Source: Shimia isoporae (GTDB lineage: Bacteria > Pseudomonadota > Alphaproteobacteria > Rhodobacterales > Rhodobacteraceae). Taken from it: a DNA stretch of 64,000 bases. Of the stretch, positions 3,975 to 9,027 are shown piece after piece (within the stretch, counting starts at the first letter, position 1; every line of letters begins with the position of its first letter). A program made the position numbers and the translations under genes. The stretch is from contig NZ_SMGR01000001.1 of NCBI RefSeq assembly GCF_004346865.1, positions 434,001 to 498,000 of the forward strand, in the 5' to 3' direction. The notes below the pieces were generated by a model. The model was not told the DNA's origin and did no database searches. It saw only the letters and a list, made by a program, of their open reading frames with translations.

Positions 3975-5540
3975 TCAGGCGAGATCCTTGTAGGAAATCT
4001 CTTTGGCGTCAGCCCCTTCGCCGACCTTGCCGCGACGCACGATCAGGCGGTTGAGCGCATGGATGTAGGCTTTGGCAGATGCCACAACCGTGTCGGTGTT
4101 GGCCGATTGGCCGGTGGCGATGATGCCATCCTCTTCGAGACGTACAGACACTGTGGCCTGCGCATCGGTGCCTTCGGTCACGGCGCTCACCTGATAGAGT
4201 TCCAGATGCGCGGCATTCGGATAATTCATCCGGATTGCCTTGAAGGTGGCGTCCACGGGGCCGTCGCCTTCGCTGACCGCAGTAACGTCTTTGCCATCGA
4301 TCTCCATTTCGACTGTGGCTTCGGCAGGGCCGCCGGTGCCGCAGGTTACTTTCATGCTGACAAGTTGGAGATGGTCGTCCTCATCCTCGCCGTCTCCGAC
4401 GCGCACAAGGGCGACGATGTCGTCGTCAAAGACCTCTTTCTTACGGTCGGCCAGCTCCTTGAAACGCACAAAGATGTCCTTGAGCTGGTTGTCGCCCACT
4501 TCAAAGCCGAGCTGCTCGAGCTTGTCGCGCAGCGCGGCGCGGCCTGAGTGTTTGCCGAGCGGCAGGGATGTGCCGGCAAGTCCTACATCTTCGGGACGCA
4601 TGATCTCGAAGGTTTCCTTGTTCTTGAGCATACCGTCCTGATGGATGCCGCTTTCATGCGCAAAGGCGTTCTTGCCGACGATGGCTTTGTTGAACTGGAC
4701 GGGGAAGCCCGACACCGTTGCCACGCGACGGGAGATGTTCATCAGCTTTTTGGTGTCGATGCCGGTGGTCCACGGCATGATGTCGTTGCGCACCTTGAGC
4801 GCCATGACGACTTCTTCGAGTGCGGTGTTGCCGGCGCGCTCGCCAAGGCCGTTGATCGTGCATTCGATCTGACGTGCGCCACCTGCCACCGCGGCCAGAG
4901 AGTTGGCTGTCGCCATGCCGAGGTCGTTGTGGCAATGGGTGGCGAAGATCACCTCATCTGCGCCCGGAACGGTTTCGATCAGCTTTTTGATCAGATCGGC
5001 GCTTTCCATCGGGGCGGTGTAGCCAACCGTGTCGGGGATGTTGATCGTGCTGGCACCGGCCTTGATGGCGATTTCAATCACGCGGCAGAGATAGTCCCAT
5101 TCGGTGCGGGTGGCGTCCATCGGAGACCACTGCACGTTGTCACAGAGGTTACGGGCATGTGTCACCGTCTCGTGAATTTTGTCTGCCATCTCGTCCATAG
5201 TCAGGTTTGGAATGGCGCGGTGCAGCGGTGAGGTGCCGATGAACGTGTGAATGCGGTTCTGTTCCGCATGCTTGACGGCTTCCCAGCAGCGGTCGATGTC
5301 AGCGAAATTGGCGCGTGCCAGACCACAGATACGGGAATTCTTGGAGCGCTGTGCGATTTCGGAAACGGCAGCAAAGTCGCCTTCCGACGCGATCGGGAAG
5401 CCAGCTTCGATGATGTCGACACCCATATCGTCGAGCATCTCGGCGATTTCGAGTTTCTCGTCGTGAGTCATGGTCGCGCCGGGACTTTGCTCGCCGTCAC
5501 GGAGGGTGGTGTCAAAAATAACTACGCGGTCTTGTGTCAT
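3975..5540 (-). CDS. leuA: 2-isopropylmalate synthase
   Basis: Condenses acetyl-CoA with 2-oxoisovalerate, the first committed step of leucine synthesis. The 521-residue length is that of long-form LeuA. The TIM-barrel catalytic domain starts with VVIFDTTLRDGEQSPG (metal-binding Asp, Arg and Glu); GFPIASEGDFAAV, THCHNDLGMATANSLAA (His-x-His metal ligands) and NGLGERAGN follow. HESGIHQDGMLKN marks the linker, and the C-terminal part from about residue 400 is the regulatory domain that gives leucine feedback inhibition. It begins 12 bases after the cupin stop codon, so the pair is almost certainly one transcript, preceded by a leader with Leu codons at 5989-6075. Confidence 0.97.
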   Translation of the reverse strand: MTQDRVVIFDTTLRDGEQSPGATMTHDEKLEIAEMLDDMGVDIIEAGFPIASEGDFAAVSEIAQRSKNSRICGLARANFADIDRCWEAVKHAEQNRIHTFIGTSPLHRAIPNLTMDEMADKIHETVTHARNLCDNVQWSPMDATRTEWDYLCRVIEIAIKAGASTINIPDTVGYTAPMESADLIKKLIETVPGADEVIFATHCHNDLGMATANSLAAVAGGARQIECTINGLGERAGNTALEEVVMALKVRNDIMPWTTGIDTKKLMNISRRVATVSGFPVQFNKAIVGKNAFAHESGIHQDGMLKNKETFEIMRPEDVGLAGTSLPLGKHSGRAALRDKLEQLGFEVGDNQLKDIFVRFKELADRKKEVFDDDIVALVRVGDGEDEDDHLQLVSMKVTCGTGGPAEATVEMEIDGKDVTAVSEGDGPVDATFKAIRMNYPNAAHLELYQVSAVTEGTDAQATVSVRLEEDGIIATGQSANTDTVVASAKAYIHALNRLIVRRGKVGEGADAKEISYKDLA

Positions 5541-5552
5541 TGTTTTTTCCTG

Positions 5553-5909
5553 TCAGATATGCGGTTTCGGGGCGGGCGCATGGCCGCTATCCCCTGTGTT
5601 TGCTTCGCCCTTTGGCTCAATCAGAAGCACCTTGGCTTCGGTCTCCGCGCGGGGGCGGTGGATTTGGCCTTGAGGCACGATCAATAGTTCGCCCGGCCCA
5701 AAGGTGACGGACGGGGCGTTGTCGTATTCCATGGTCACAGAGCCGTCGATCACCAGAAAAAAGTCATCTGTGTTGTCGTGCTTGTGAAACGGAAATTCAC
5801 CCTGAAATTTTACAACCATCACGTCGTTGTCGTTGTAGCTGGCAACGACATGGGGGTCCCAATGCGAGGAAAACTGCGAAAGTTTCTCCGATAGATTTAT
5901 TTTGTGCAT
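5553..5909 (-). CDS. Small cupin protein in the leuA operon
   Basis: 118 residues forming one cupin barrel: FPFHKHDNTDDFFLVIDG carries the His-x-His...Glu-type metal-binding motif 1 (here with Asp residues in the following positions), and FGPGELLIVPQGQIHRP is motif 2 with its His. Such proteins bind a metal and can be dioxygenases, isomerases or small sensors; I cannot assign a substrate. The ribosome binding site is GATTAGGA, 9 bases before ATG 5909. That same octamer is complementary to the Leu-codon part of the leader peptide upstream. Position between the leucine leader and leuA suggests it is made when leucine is short. Confidence 0.85.
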   Translation of the reverse strand: MHKINLSEKLSQFSSHWDPHVVASYNDNDVMVVKFQGEFPFHKHDNTDDFFLVIDGSVTMEYDNAPSVTFGPGELLIVPQGQIHRPRAETEAKVLLIEPKGEANTGDSGHAPAPKPHI

Positions 5910-5997
5910 GATGTGGTTCCTAATCTCGGTTCGCGGAAGTGCGGCGCGTAATCATGTCCTCTGAGCACGCGCGCCGGAGAGGCCGCGCTCAGAGGCG
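5910..5997 (-). promoter_or_regulatory. Leucine attenuator RNA: hairpin and RBS-sequestering pairing
   Basis: On the minus strand the leader stop codon lies in the left arm of a strong hairpin: CCTCTGAGC pairs perfectly with GCTCAGAGG (plus-strand 5987-5995 and 5958-5966), with further GC pairs inside. No T-run follows, so it does not look like a normal rho-independent terminator. A second pairing is possible between TCCTAATC in the Leu codons (plus 5998-6005) and GATTAGGA at the cupin ribosome binding site (plus 5918-5925), eight contiguous bases. GGCGCG in the hairpin can also pair with CGCGCC at about 5942-5947. Mutually exclusive folds and Leu codons together suggest attenuation, perhaps translational. 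Confidence 0.6.
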
Positions 5998-6075
5998 GAT
6001 TAGGAGTAGGTCAATGCCACGCGCAAACGGCGCCGGTAGGCGCTCGGTCAGTGCGATATGTGTGGTTTTGATCAT
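5989..6075 (-). CDS. Leucine leader peptide (LeuL-like), 28 aa
   Basis: Short frame ATG 6075 to TGA 5989, product 28 residues, ending IDLLLIRL with codons CTA-CTC-CTA-ATC-CGC-CTC directly before the stop. Six of 28 residues are Leu and four of these are in the last six positions; rare CTA codons are used. No Shine-Dalgarno is seen, but TATAAA at 6084-6089 on the minus strand ends eight bases before the ATG, so the transcript probably begins at or very near the start codon, like leaderless trpL peptides known in alphaproteobacteria. It lies 80 bases before the cupin-leuA operon and its stop codon is inside the attenuator hairpin. Assignment as a leucine attenuator is inference from this layout. 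Confidence 0.68.
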   Translation of the reverse strand: MIKTTHIALTERLPAPFARGIDLLLIRL

Positions 6076-6083
6076 GGGCGGGA

Positions 6084-6089
6084 TTTATA
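6084..6089 (-). promoter_or_regulatory. -10 element for the leucine leader transcript
   Basis: TATAAA on the minus strand (plus-strand TTTATA). Distance to the leader ATG fits a start of transcription within about three bases of the ATG. A convincing -35 hexamer is not visible. Confidence 0.5.
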
Positions 6090-6233
6090 CATGCCGTTTG
6101 GTAAATGGGAAGGGGAATTTTGCGCAGGCTGGTTTGGGCCGCGAAAGTTGGCCGGTCCCGCGTGGTTGTCGTACCTAACGGACGATCCGATGGGACCGCC
6201 CATGCGTATCTGACAGACAGCGGGGAGGTCGGA

Positions 6234-6893
6234 ATGCGGGCATTGGTGATTGGAGACAGTGGCGGGATTGGCGGTGCGGTGGCAGAGGTTTTGCACGCGC
6301 GCGGCGCCGATGTTGTCGGCCTTTCGCGGGCGCGAACCGGCTTCGACCTGTTAAGTCCGGACGCAGCTGAGGAACAAATTGCGGCGCTTGATGATGTCTT
6401 CGACCTCATATTCGTGGCGACAGGTGCATTGGTCAGCACGCGGGAACGGCCGGAAAAGTCGCTGAAAGAGGTTTCCGCGGCGGAACTCGCGGAACAGTTT
6501 GCGATCAATGCCATCGGACCGGCGCTTGTATTGCGCCACGCGCCGAGGTTGCTGGCACGCGCCCAGCGTGGCGTTTTCGCAGTGCTGTCGGCACGGGTTG
6601 GGTCGATTGGCGATAATCGCGCGGGGGGGTGGTATTCCTATCGGGCCAGTAAGGCGGCGCTAAATCAGATCGTGCACACAGGGGCGATAGAATTGGCGCG
6701 GACGCACAAGCAGGCGGTCTGTGTCGCGCTGCATCCGGGCACGGTGGAAACATCCTTTACCGCTGGTTTTTCGGGTCGGGAGAAGCTCTCGGCGGAGGAA
6801 AGTGCGACGCGATTGCTTGATGTGCTGAACGGGTTGGACGCGGGCGATACCGGCGGGTTCTTTGATTATTCAGGCGCACCCGTCGTTTGGTGA
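6234..6893 (+). CDS. Short-chain dehydrogenase/reductase (C-factor type)
   Basis: 219 residues. Rossmann fold starts MRALVIGDSGGIGGAVAEVL with a glycine-rich GDSGGIGG nucleotide loop; the catalytic Tyr-x-x-x-Lys is in WYSYRASKAALNQ (about residues 138-150) and a Ser precedes it in the AVLSARVGSIGDN strand. The C-terminus has LHPGTVETSFT. The size and motifs resemble CsgA/C-factor-like SDRs. ATG 6234 has GGGGAGG at a good distance; the longer upstream frame runs into the leuA leader region and lacks support. The 3' end overlaps the convergent flavoprotein gene by 24 bases. Confidence 0.85.
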   Translation: MRALVIGDSGGIGGAVAEVLHARGADVVGLSRARTGFDLLSPDAAEEQIAALDDVFDLIFVATGALVSTRERPEKSLKEVSAAELAEQFAINAIGPALVLRHAPRLLARAQRGVFAVLSARVGSIGDNRAGGWYSYRASKAALNQIVHTGAIELARTHKQAVCVALHPGTVETSFTAGFSGREKLSAEESATRLLDVLNGLDAGDTGGFFDYSGAPVVW

Positions 6894-7457
6894 GGCCAGC
6901 GTAAACCCGATTTTGTAGCTTTGCTCCAGCAGCGCGGCACGGCGGGCATCCGACCCTGTGGCGCCGTACAACACTTCCAATTTGCGGGGAGACAATCCGA
7001 AATAGCCGAATGTTCCCTTGATCCACGCGGTTTCGAGTGCTTCGAGGTAGCCTTCGTTTTTGATTTCGTCAGACCGCCCGCCCGCAGGGACCAGCAAAAC
7101 GCCGCTTCGGGCGCGTTGCAGGGAGGTCTCGGGATCGTCGAGTTGGTCGTAGGCCCAACCCCACCGGAACACCCGGTCGACCCAACCTTTGGTCATTGCC
7201 GGCATGCCCCACCAGAACAACGGGAACACCAGACAGATTGCGTCGGCCCGCGCGATGCGCGCCTGTTCTGCAAGAACATCCGGCGGGGTCGTGTTTTTGA
7301 TGTCTGCCAGTGACCACAGCGGGTTGAACCCCTCCGCGTTCAGGTCGGCGAGTTCGGTTGAGTGGCCTGCTGCCTGGGCACCGCGCATGAAAGCTTGTGC
7401 GGCCGCGGCGCTGAAGGCGTTGGGGTTAGGATGGTCGAGGACAGTCAGGACGTGCAT
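6870..7457 (-). CDS. NAD(P)H:quinone oxidoreductase-like flavoprotein
   Basis: 195 residues with a flavodoxin-like fold of the NQO1/KefF/MdaB kind. It begins MHVLTVLDHPNPNAFSAA, the typical start strand and FMN/FAD phosphate loop, and contains DAICLVFPLFWWGMPAMTKG and WVDRVFRWGWAY, which are family hallmarks. Such enzymes reduce quinones by two electrons in the cytoplasm. It overlaps the convergent SDR gene tail to tail by 24 bases. Start at ATG 7457, no strong competing start. Confidence 0.85.
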   Translation of the reverse strand: MHVLTVLDHPNPNAFSAAAAQAFMRGAQAAGHSTELADLNAEGFNPLWSLADIKNTTPPDVLAEQARIARADAICLVFPLFWWGMPAMTKGWVDRVFRWGWAYDQLDDPETSLQRARSGVLLVPAGGRSDEIKNEGYLEALETAWIKGTFGYFGLSPRKLEVLYGATGSDARRAALLEQSYKIGFTLASPNDGCA

Positions 7458-7635: not shown

Positions 7636-9027
7636 TCAGCCGTCGGTCTGAAGGGTTCCGTTTTCCCATGTGCCGGTTGCGGTTTCCCCGCCAGCGTAGT
7701 TGATCGTGCCGGAACCCTGACGTTTGCCGGCTTTGAACATGCCTTCATACACGTCGCCGTTCGCGTAGGTGGCTACGCCCATACCGTCGATTTCACCGGC
7801 TTTCCATTCGCCGGAATATTTGAAGCCGTCAGGCATGACCAGTTCGCCGATGCCTTCGCGTTGGCCTTTGACAAAGGCACCTGTGTAAACGGAGCCGTCC
7901 GGAAAGGTGACAGTGCCCAGACCGTGGCGCAGACCTTCCACAAAGTCGCCTTCGTAGCGGTAACCGTCAGGGTAGGTGGTCACGCCTTTGCCGTGGCTGC
8001 GGGCGGCTTTGAATTCGCCTTCGTAGACCAGCCCGTTCACATAAGCAGCCTTGCCGTTGCCTTCGATCACGCCGTCGACCCATTCGCCTTCGTAGATGCT
8101 GCCGTCGGCATAGGTGATTTTGCCGAAGCCGTGGCTTTGGTTGTTGCGGATGGCCCCCTGATAGACGGAGCCGTCCGTGTAGGTGAGCGTGCCTTCGCCT
8201 TCTTGTCGGCCGTTGAGCCAGCTGCCCTTGTAGCTGTAGCCGTCTGGCGCGGTGAGCGTGCCTTGGCCGTGGCGCTGACCATCCTGAAAATTGCCTACGT
8301 AGCGGTCGCCGTTCGCATAGGCCATCTCGCCATTTCCTTGACGGCGACCGTTGCTGATCTGGCCGACGTACGTATCGCCGTTGGCATATGTGATGGTGCC
8401 TTCGCCAGACATCTGGTTATCCGCCCAGCTGCCGGTGTAGACCAACCCGTCCGGCACCGTGAGTGTGCCGGTGCCTGAGCGTTGCCCGTTGACCATGCCG
8501 CCGTCATAAATCGTGCCGTCTGCAAAGGTGATTTTGCCTTGGCCATCGCGAATGCCGTTGACCCAGCTGCCTTCGTACTGGTCGCCGTTCGGGAAGATGG
8601 ACGTTCCGTGGCCGTGCTGGACCGCATTCACGAAGTCGCCTTCGTAGCGCACACCATCTGCGCCGATGGACACACCGCGACCGGTGATCTGGCCTTCTTT
8701 CCATTCGCCTTCATAGGTGCCGCCATCTGCGAAAACGATTTTGCCGACGCCGTGTGGACGGCCCTTGGCGAAGTCGCCTTCGTAAACGGATCCATTTGCG
8801 AAACGGGCCACACCTTTGCCGAGAATCTCGCCGTCGACCCACGCACCCGTGTATTCGTATCCGTTGGGCAGGCGGTAGGTGCCGGTACCGTGCTGCAGGC
8901 CGCCTTTGAAGGTGCCTTCGTACACGCCGCCATCGTCATACTGTTTGGTCAGAACCTGGCTGTCCTGCGCAATGGCCGGAGCGGCCGCCAGCAGGATGGC
9001 TAAAGTAAGTGCCTGAGTTCTGCTCAT
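7636..9027 (-). CDS. Exported MORN-repeat protein
   Basis: 463 residues: a signal peptide (residues 1-20, ending AIAQ) followed by 18 clear MORN repeats and a degenerate nineteenth at the C-terminus. The period is 23 residues with pattern Y-x-G-x-(W/F)-x-x-G-x-x-x-G-x-G-x-x-x-x-x-(D/N)-G; examples are YEGDFAKGRPHGVG and YEGEWVDGVIEGNG. In other proteins MORN arrays form extended beta ribbons that bind lipids or proteins. No catalytic domain is attached, so this is an all-repeat periplasmic or outer-surface protein. Neighbouring repeats differ at the DNA level, so the array is old, not a recent expansion. Role unknown. Confidence 0.9.
   Translation of the reverse strand: MSRTQALTLAILLAAAPAIAQDSQVLTKQYDDGGVYEGTFKGGLQHGTGTYRLPNGYEYTGAWVDGEILGKGVARFANGSVYEGDFAKGRPHGVGKIVFADGGTYEGEWKEGQITGRGVSIGADGVRYEGDFVNAVQHGHGTSIFPNGDQYEGSWVNGIRDGQGKITFADGTIYDGGMVNGQRSGTGTLTVPDGLVYTGSWADNQMSGEGTITYANGDTYVGQISNGRRQGNGEMAYANGDRYVGNFQDGQRHGQGTLTAPDGYSYKGSWLNGRQEGEGTLTYTDGSVYQGAIRNNQSHGFGKITYADGSIYEGEWVDGVIEGNGKAAYVNGLVYEGEFKAARSHGKGVTTYPDGYRYEGDFVEGLRHGLGTVTFPDGSVYTGAFVKGQREGIGELVMPDGFKYSGEWKAGEIDGMGVATYANGDVYEGMFKAGKRQGSGTINYAGGETATGTWENGTLQTDG

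Follow-up and report, generated by a model that had tools for sequence, protein, structure and literature searches.

The question raised by this locus is how leuA of Shimia isoporae is controlled, since the gene lies behind a short leucine-rich frame and a small cupin gene, and which of the two genes that frame serves. In the 64,000-nucleotide stretch of DNA that was analyzed (the window), a 28-codon frame, a hairpin containing its stop codon, the cupin gene and leuA follow one another on the minus strand (Table 1), with leuA starting at 5540, 12 bases past the cupin stop. The original prediction for this DNA was of a leaderless leucine attenuator that may act on translation, with the cupin as the first gene controlled. 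The analysis given here points to a translational attenuator of leuA that works through the ribosome and responds to leucine, a reading to which we assign a probability of roughly three in four (0.77).

The leader locus and the gene it belongs to

Table 1. Positions in the window of the leader, its helices and the genes downstream.
Feature	Position	Strand	Basis or remark
TATAAA, -10-like box	6084..6089	-	ends eight bases 5' of leader ATG
Leader frame, 28 codons + TGA, MIKTTHIALTERLPAPFARGIDLLLIRL, probably leaderless	5989..6075	-	ATG 6075, TGA 5991-5989
Hairpin P1 within leader frame, GCGCCTACCGGCGC, 5-bp stem	6030..6043	-	perfect-stem count across relatives
Regulatory Leu codons CTA CTC CTA	6001..6009	-	fourth Leu codon CTC at 5994-5992
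Base stem 5' arm TCCTAATC, anti-Shine-Dalgarno from Leu codons and Ile codon	5998..6005	-	complementarity, covariation
Hairpin P2 left arm CCTCTGAGCG, includes leader stop codon	5986..5995	-	fold; 99.3% of cells paired, 57 sequences
Hairpin P2 right arm TGCTCAGAGG, nine Watson-Crick pairs and one G-U	5958..5967	-	fold, alignment
P3 5' arm GGCGCG, inside P2 loop	5970..5975	-	97.6% of cells paired; GGTGCG/CGCACC compensating in L035, L122
P3 3' arm CGCGCC	5943..5948	-	possible H-type pseudoknot with P2, or alternative hairpin
Base stem 3' arm GATTAGGA = cupin RBS	5918..5925	-	ends eight bases 5' of cupin ATG
Cupin, Cupin_2, 118 aa, first operon gene here	5553..5909	-	PF07883, E 3e-12
leuA, 2-isopropylmalate synthase, 521 aa	3975..5540	-	NF002087, 839.5 bits, cut-off 729

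The elements named in that prediction are all present. The last six sense codons of the leader are CTA CTC CTA ATC CGC CTC, four of them for Leu, the stop codon lies in the left arm of a perfect 9-bp hairpin (CCTCTGAGC, 5995-5987, with GCTCAGAGG, 5966-5958), a TATAAA precedes the ATG, and the eight bases drawn from the Leu and Ile codons (6005-5998) are the exact complement of the cupin ribosome binding site, or RBS (5925-5918). The region 5890-6075 folds with a z of −3.1, none of 200 shuffles being equally stable, and its predicted fold already includes the stem between the Leu codons and the RBS, termed the base stem, with hairpin P2 nested within it. The in-frame hairpin P1 and the second helix P3 are additions of this analysis. 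On the other side of the leader a short-chain dehydrogenase is encoded divergently (6231-6893, plus strand), then a flavodoxin-fold protein (6870-7457, minus strand), and 7636-9027 encodes a 463-aa protein built of regular short repeats, which we take to resemble MORN repeats.

The gene that the leader serves was determined from 141 loci, 111 of them cupin or own-genome loci and 30 fetched by leuA. A Leu-rich frame ending in a stop-codon hairpin occurs in all 81 loci with a leuA match, which reduce to 66 distinct sequences and include three from the window's own genome, and in none of the 60 cupin loci that lack a leuA match in the examined DNA, one of which, L055, has only 131 nt upstream. 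It is found in 51 of the 111 cupin or own-genome loci, exactly those with a leuA match, and in 30/30 of those fetched by leuA, of which 25 have no cupin match and carry the leader directly 5' of leuA. The cupin is much the scarcer partner, with relatives in 83 of 394 genomes of the family (Rhodobacteraceae), and it adjoins leuA in 20 of the 30 best family cupin loci (L002-L031); the search of genome contigs for cupins confirmed 86 relatives, of which the best 80 were kept. In L028 roughly 1 kb separates the cupin from leuA, and it is leuA that the leader adjoins; L078 is identical there. Because in these loci the leader accompanies every leuA match and no cupin that lacks one, and stays beside leuA in L028 and L078, the element is, by this comparison, that of leuA, with the cupin sometimes placed between leader and leuA as the first gene. 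The cupin is thus the first gene here, as originally proposed, but it is not the core target, and the possibility that the leader is the cupin's own element was rejected.

The cupin was recognized as Cupin_2 from its sequence only, and the closest solved structure by sequence is 3d82_A. Among the cupins without leuA the largest neighbor cluster is Peptidase S58, with 15 proteins from 60 loci, found just downstream of the cupin in L080, L084, L088, L090-L093, L095 and others. In L075, a record titled Enemella evansiae, the stretch from the last 60 nt of the leader to the cupin ATG is identical to that of the family genome G002 (L026); either a mistaken title or a mixed assembly could explain this.

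Conserved codons and covarying helices

The Leu codons hold their places in the 66 distinct loci. Counted from the stop, codons −4 and −6 encode Leu in 66/66, codon −5 in 51, codon −7 in 41 and codon −1 in 60. One explanation that these codons might invite is that the Leu run is a by-product of an anti-Shine-Dalgarno sequence, given that CUCCUU or CUCCUA in frame reads Leu-Leu, in which case the RBS would be masked with no sensing of leucine. The codons of the base stem do read Leu, and codon −6, which is outside the core 8-bp stem, is entered by the helix in some loci (L010, L020). What such a by-product does not account for is the invariance of Leu at codon −6, its frequency at codon −7, the use at codon −6 in 23/66 loci of CTA, which makes up 1.2% of the Leu codons of the genes downstream, and the retention of the leader stop inside P2. 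Because codon −6, outside the core stem, is always Leu, and with the rare CTA, the decoding of Leu appears to matter beyond the anti-Shine-Dalgarno sequence, and the by-product explanation is very improbable.

A recurrent signal is also found at the start of the frame. A hexamer matching TATAAT in at least five of six positions stands 5-9 nt before an in-frame leader ATG in 55 of the 66 distinct loci, versus 1.6 expected from shuffles, while a search upstream of the chosen ATG for three Shine-Dalgarno-like tetramers gave none in 66 loci; in the window, no promoter passes the two-hexamer sigma-70 rule in 5500-6500. From these patterns the leader frame is probably leaderless and translated. Within the frame, a perfect P1 stem of at least 5 bp is found in 40 of 66 leaders (29 different sequences), where synonymous shuffling predicts 15.7 and coding windows taken downstream predict 7.3, this count being the second of two tests of P1; the first, an energy test against synonymous shuffles, gave a mean z of −0.22 over the 66 leaders, which is not significant.

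Pairing between the Leu codons and the first gene was scored by taking the final eight codons of the leader and finding their best helix with the 25 nt that precede the cupin ATG. For the 40 distinct cupin loci the mean is 18.5 with the locus's own partner versus 13.9 with swapped partners, and none of 20,000 permutations, which like the shuffles below ignore the relatedness of the sequences, reaches the observed sum. The own pairing exceeds the swapped mean in 34 of these loci, and the other six (L015, L027, L043, L063, L083, and L089) do no better with their own partner. The 25 distinct loci in which leuA is the first gene (leuA-first loci), tested without L028 and L078, behave in the same way (15.5 versus 13.4, 0/20,000 permutations; own pairing above the swapped mean in 22, the exceptions being L131, L135, and L136). 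Variants of the base stem before cupins include TCCTAATC/GATTAGGA, TCCTAACC/GGTTAGGA, and TCCTTAGC/GCTAAGGA, and TACTCC/GGAGTA is found before leuA.

The whole structure was examined in a 57-row alignment, from which L113 was left out together with nine loci whose spacers are long or whose first gene is far off. Its 24 named pairs are 93.2% standard, and pairing falls to 29-51% when the partners are slid by 1-3 columns. Two-sided changes occur in 48 cells versus 20.1 after shuffling (0/500 shuffles) and affect 8 pairs versus 5.3 (4/500), while further pair types, one of five pair measures, show no excess (24 versus 22.6, 132/500). The changes are spread unevenly, with five of eight pairs in the base stem (81.7% of cells paired), two of ten in P2, and one of six in P3, where just two sequences are involved. 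RNAalifold applied to the same alignment predicts only P2, the base stem and P3 being missing. P3 links the loop of P2 to bases 3' of P2, such that it may form an H-type pseudoknot with P2 or replace the inner part of P2. Judged from these alignments the stem between Leu codons and RBS covaries, and the Leu run, the hairpin and the codon-to-RBS complement of the original prediction recur in relatives with compensating changes; its leader peptide and leaderless start are likewise supported by the comparison.

The near invariance of P2 and P3 is what might be expected of a binding site, and hence a regulatory protein rather than a ribosome might read the pseudoknot and base stem, an explanation that was preferred for Actinobacteria on the basis of Streptomyces mutation data (Seliverstov et al., 2005; PMC1262725). 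Against this stand the Leu codons at −4 and −6 in every distinct locus, the enrichment of the rare CTA and the fixed spacing between promoter box and leader ATG, all of which argue that the frame is translated, and such a protein-binding element is accordingly quite unlikely, although less so than the by-product explanation above.

A candidate translational switch

In the proposed attenuator, transcription would begin at or beside the leader ATG and a ribosome would translate the leaderless frame. When leucine is present, the ribosome would pass the Leu codons and exit at the UGA, and in the freed RNA the Leu codons (UCCUAAUC) would close on the first gene's RBS (GAUUAGGA) around the nested P2, keeping initiation low. 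When charged Leu-tRNA is lacking, the ribosome would stall on the Leu codons and its footprint would block their pairing with the RBS; P3 could then form and the first gene would be translated. In this locus that gene is the cupin, to which leuA, 12 nt further on, is presumably coupled.

Folding predictions are consistent with this scheme. The predicted openness of the RBS in the window is 0.02 in the free RNA and rises to 0.57-0.63 when a ribosome, modeled as an unpaired footprint, occupies the Leu codons, and P3 shows up in the predicted fold once the ribosome covers the left arm of P2. Over the relatives, the mean openness of the 3'-arm region goes from 0.29 to 0.52 in cupin loci, with a rise of more than 0.1 in 32 of 40, and from 0.26 to 0.51 in leuA-first loci, with such a rise in 18 of 25. 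With the ribosome placed at the leader start instead, the means are 0.29 and 0.25, a change of 0.01 or less. Placing it at the stop codon gives the RBS of the window an openness of 0.62, similar to the stall on the Leu codons, and therefore the model needs quick release at the stop, with a lasting stall only at leucine shortage. In 24 of the 25 leuA-first loci, 15-29 nt separate the end of the 3' arm from the leuA ATG (43 in the other), which is too far for an ordinary Shine-Dalgarno sequence, and therefore masking in these loci must hit a wider initiation region or act otherwise.

It is also conceivable that the leader governs transcription, through read-through versus premature termination, either by Rho or by polarity on the untranslated message. 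Leucine leaders are classically transcriptional, Rho needs no U-run, and the geometry of leader and hairpin fits such a scheme. Nothing resembling an intrinsic terminator accompanies the element, however: there is no terminator-like site in 5500-6500, and in the 66 distinct loci no T-run longer than four occurs between the leader stop and the first gene and no 8-nt window after P2 has more than five T, as a result of which an intrinsic terminator was rejected. In addition, it is the stem at the RBS that covaries, and a pure terminator would have no need of it. Transcriptional attenuation is therefore unlikely, if less so than recognition by a protein. The absence of a T-run and the translational rather than terminator-based control of the original prediction both agree with the comparison.

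Known leaders and the distribution of the element

The classical attenuators, which are the trp, his, and leu leaders of Gammaproteobacteria, are ribosome-mediated and transcriptional, and they share with the present element a short leader of end-product codons before a biosynthesis gene. Their terminator with its U-run is missing here, where a covarying base stem would instead mask the RBS. The erm-type translational attenuators of resistance genes resemble the element in that stalling of a ribosome on the leader uncovers a masked RBS, but the signal there is an antibiotic while here it would be charged Leu-tRNA. Among Alphaproteobacteria, the trpL attenuator of Sinorhizobium meliloti is described as leaderless, its frame running from the first AUG of the transcript (PMC10117765), and is alike in this, but it involves Trp and attenuation of transcription. 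In the same order as the host, uORFC-8-2 before cysS of Rhodobacterales is described as having features of ribosome-mediated attenuation, with transcriptional read-through (PMC8632094); it too is an amino-acid-codon leader, but with Cys codons and cysS, and a search of that main text for leuA and leucine gave nothing.

The closest likeness is to the LEU element before actinobacterial leuA, described as a leader with Leu codons, a pseudoknot and an alternative hairpin, and a base stem between the Leu codons and the Shine-Dalgarno sequence (Seliverstov et al., 2005; PMC1262725). The likeness is one of described architecture. Of the three features, a Leu-codon frame precedes leuA in all 81 leuA loci, P2 together with P3 allows an H-type pseudoknot, and the base stem is present at the cupin RBS, while in leuA-first loci its 3' arm is off the normal Shine-Dalgarno distance. 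The present element differs in belonging to another phylum, in its in-frame hairpin and in having a cupin as first gene in some members. The LEU authors considered attenuation unlikely from the Streptomyces mutation data and proposed a binding protein (PMC1262725), whereas codon and covariation data favor attenuation for the present element. Other actinobacterial leaders have been described: the leuA leader of Streptomyces lividans, MRFGLLLLSCRGEGL, is reported to be leaderless and to be without a typical terminator (PMC8079986), that of Corynebacterium glutamicum to have four Leu codons (PMC4046766), and a leuA uORF of Mycobacterium abscessus is listed as ribosome-protected (PMC4974804).

CUC-CUU and CUC-CUA are in-frame complements of AAGGAG and UAGGAG, and hence the same Leu bases can both sense starvation and mask an RBS. 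This leads to a broader and more tentative proposal, which we hold to have somewhat less than an even chance, that the alphaproteobacterial element and the actinobacterial LEU element are one mechanism, whether inherited, transferred or invented more than once, in which the codons that exert control are themselves the anti-Shine-Dalgarno sequence, and in which genes landing between leader and leuA, such as the cupin, acquire a fitting RBS and join leucine control. The cupin cases would then suggest a route by which an unrelated gene enters an existing switch. The element also bears on the question of 2005, whether the actinobacterial LEU element is read by a ribosome or a protein; for the present element the ribosome is favored by the covariation, by Leu codons that lie beyond the core stem and by the probable leaderless start.

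Searches for an existing description gave little. With Rfam release 15, the window region 5500-6500 gave three matches, all far below the gathering threshold, and the loci of six relatives gave no match; a known Rfam family covering the element was rejected because no score reached that threshold. No alphaproteobacterial leuA leader was recognized among the matches listed by searches of article full texts, although an earlier mention is possible. As judged from sequence comparison, the leucine leader of leuA is real, conserved and covarying, and as far as could be checked it is new for Alphaproteobacteria. If the proposed mechanism is correct, it represents a widespread translational leucine switch in this class, for which no Rfam family was found.

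The original prediction concerned a single locus, where the leader is indeed present, but the element extends far beyond it. A covariance model built from the 57-row alignment matches 381 of 394 family genomes at an E-value of 0.01 or better, these E-values being rough, mostly with one match per genome. Seven of the 13 missed genomes also lack a leuA match, and the element is thus found in 378 of 384 leuA-positive genomes; among the six leuA-positive genomes that were missed, L219 (G045) has a diverged leader on reading and L220 (G029) has none by eye. The model identified the element before leuA in Phaeobacter inhibens M650 (81.3 bits), where the examined record has no annotated feature over it, and this culturable marine species makes a direct test possible. 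In a sample of the order the model matches 144 of 148 genomes, all of the same family, and the four misses represent one genus.

In a sample of the class the model matches 22 of 289 genomes, 18 of them outside the family. Of these 18 loci, 13 contain leuA and five do not, and the leuA start is beside the match in 12. A looser view of more distant relatives was obtained from 68 genomes outside the family with a leuA match, of which the best 27 leuA loci were searched for a frame that has two or more Leu codons close to its stop, the stop itself being held in a CC(C/T)CTGA...TCAG(A/G)GG-like hairpin. This pattern, which was written after viewing related leaders, some of them from among the 27 genomes tested, is found in 21 of the 27 loci, and in 17 in a stricter form. 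The reverse strand gave four (looser) and two (stricter), dinucleotide shuffles gave means of 0.1 and 0, and none of 135 windows inside leuA fitted. On the sequence evidence, related leaders extend well beyond the family while diverging, and several read Leu-Arg-Leu. Some leaders outside the family end in Leu-Arg-Leu-x-x-Pro-stop, with no pure Leu run and with the stop in a CCCCTGA hairpin (L173, L174, L200, L202, L203, L207, L209, L210, L213, L217, and L218).
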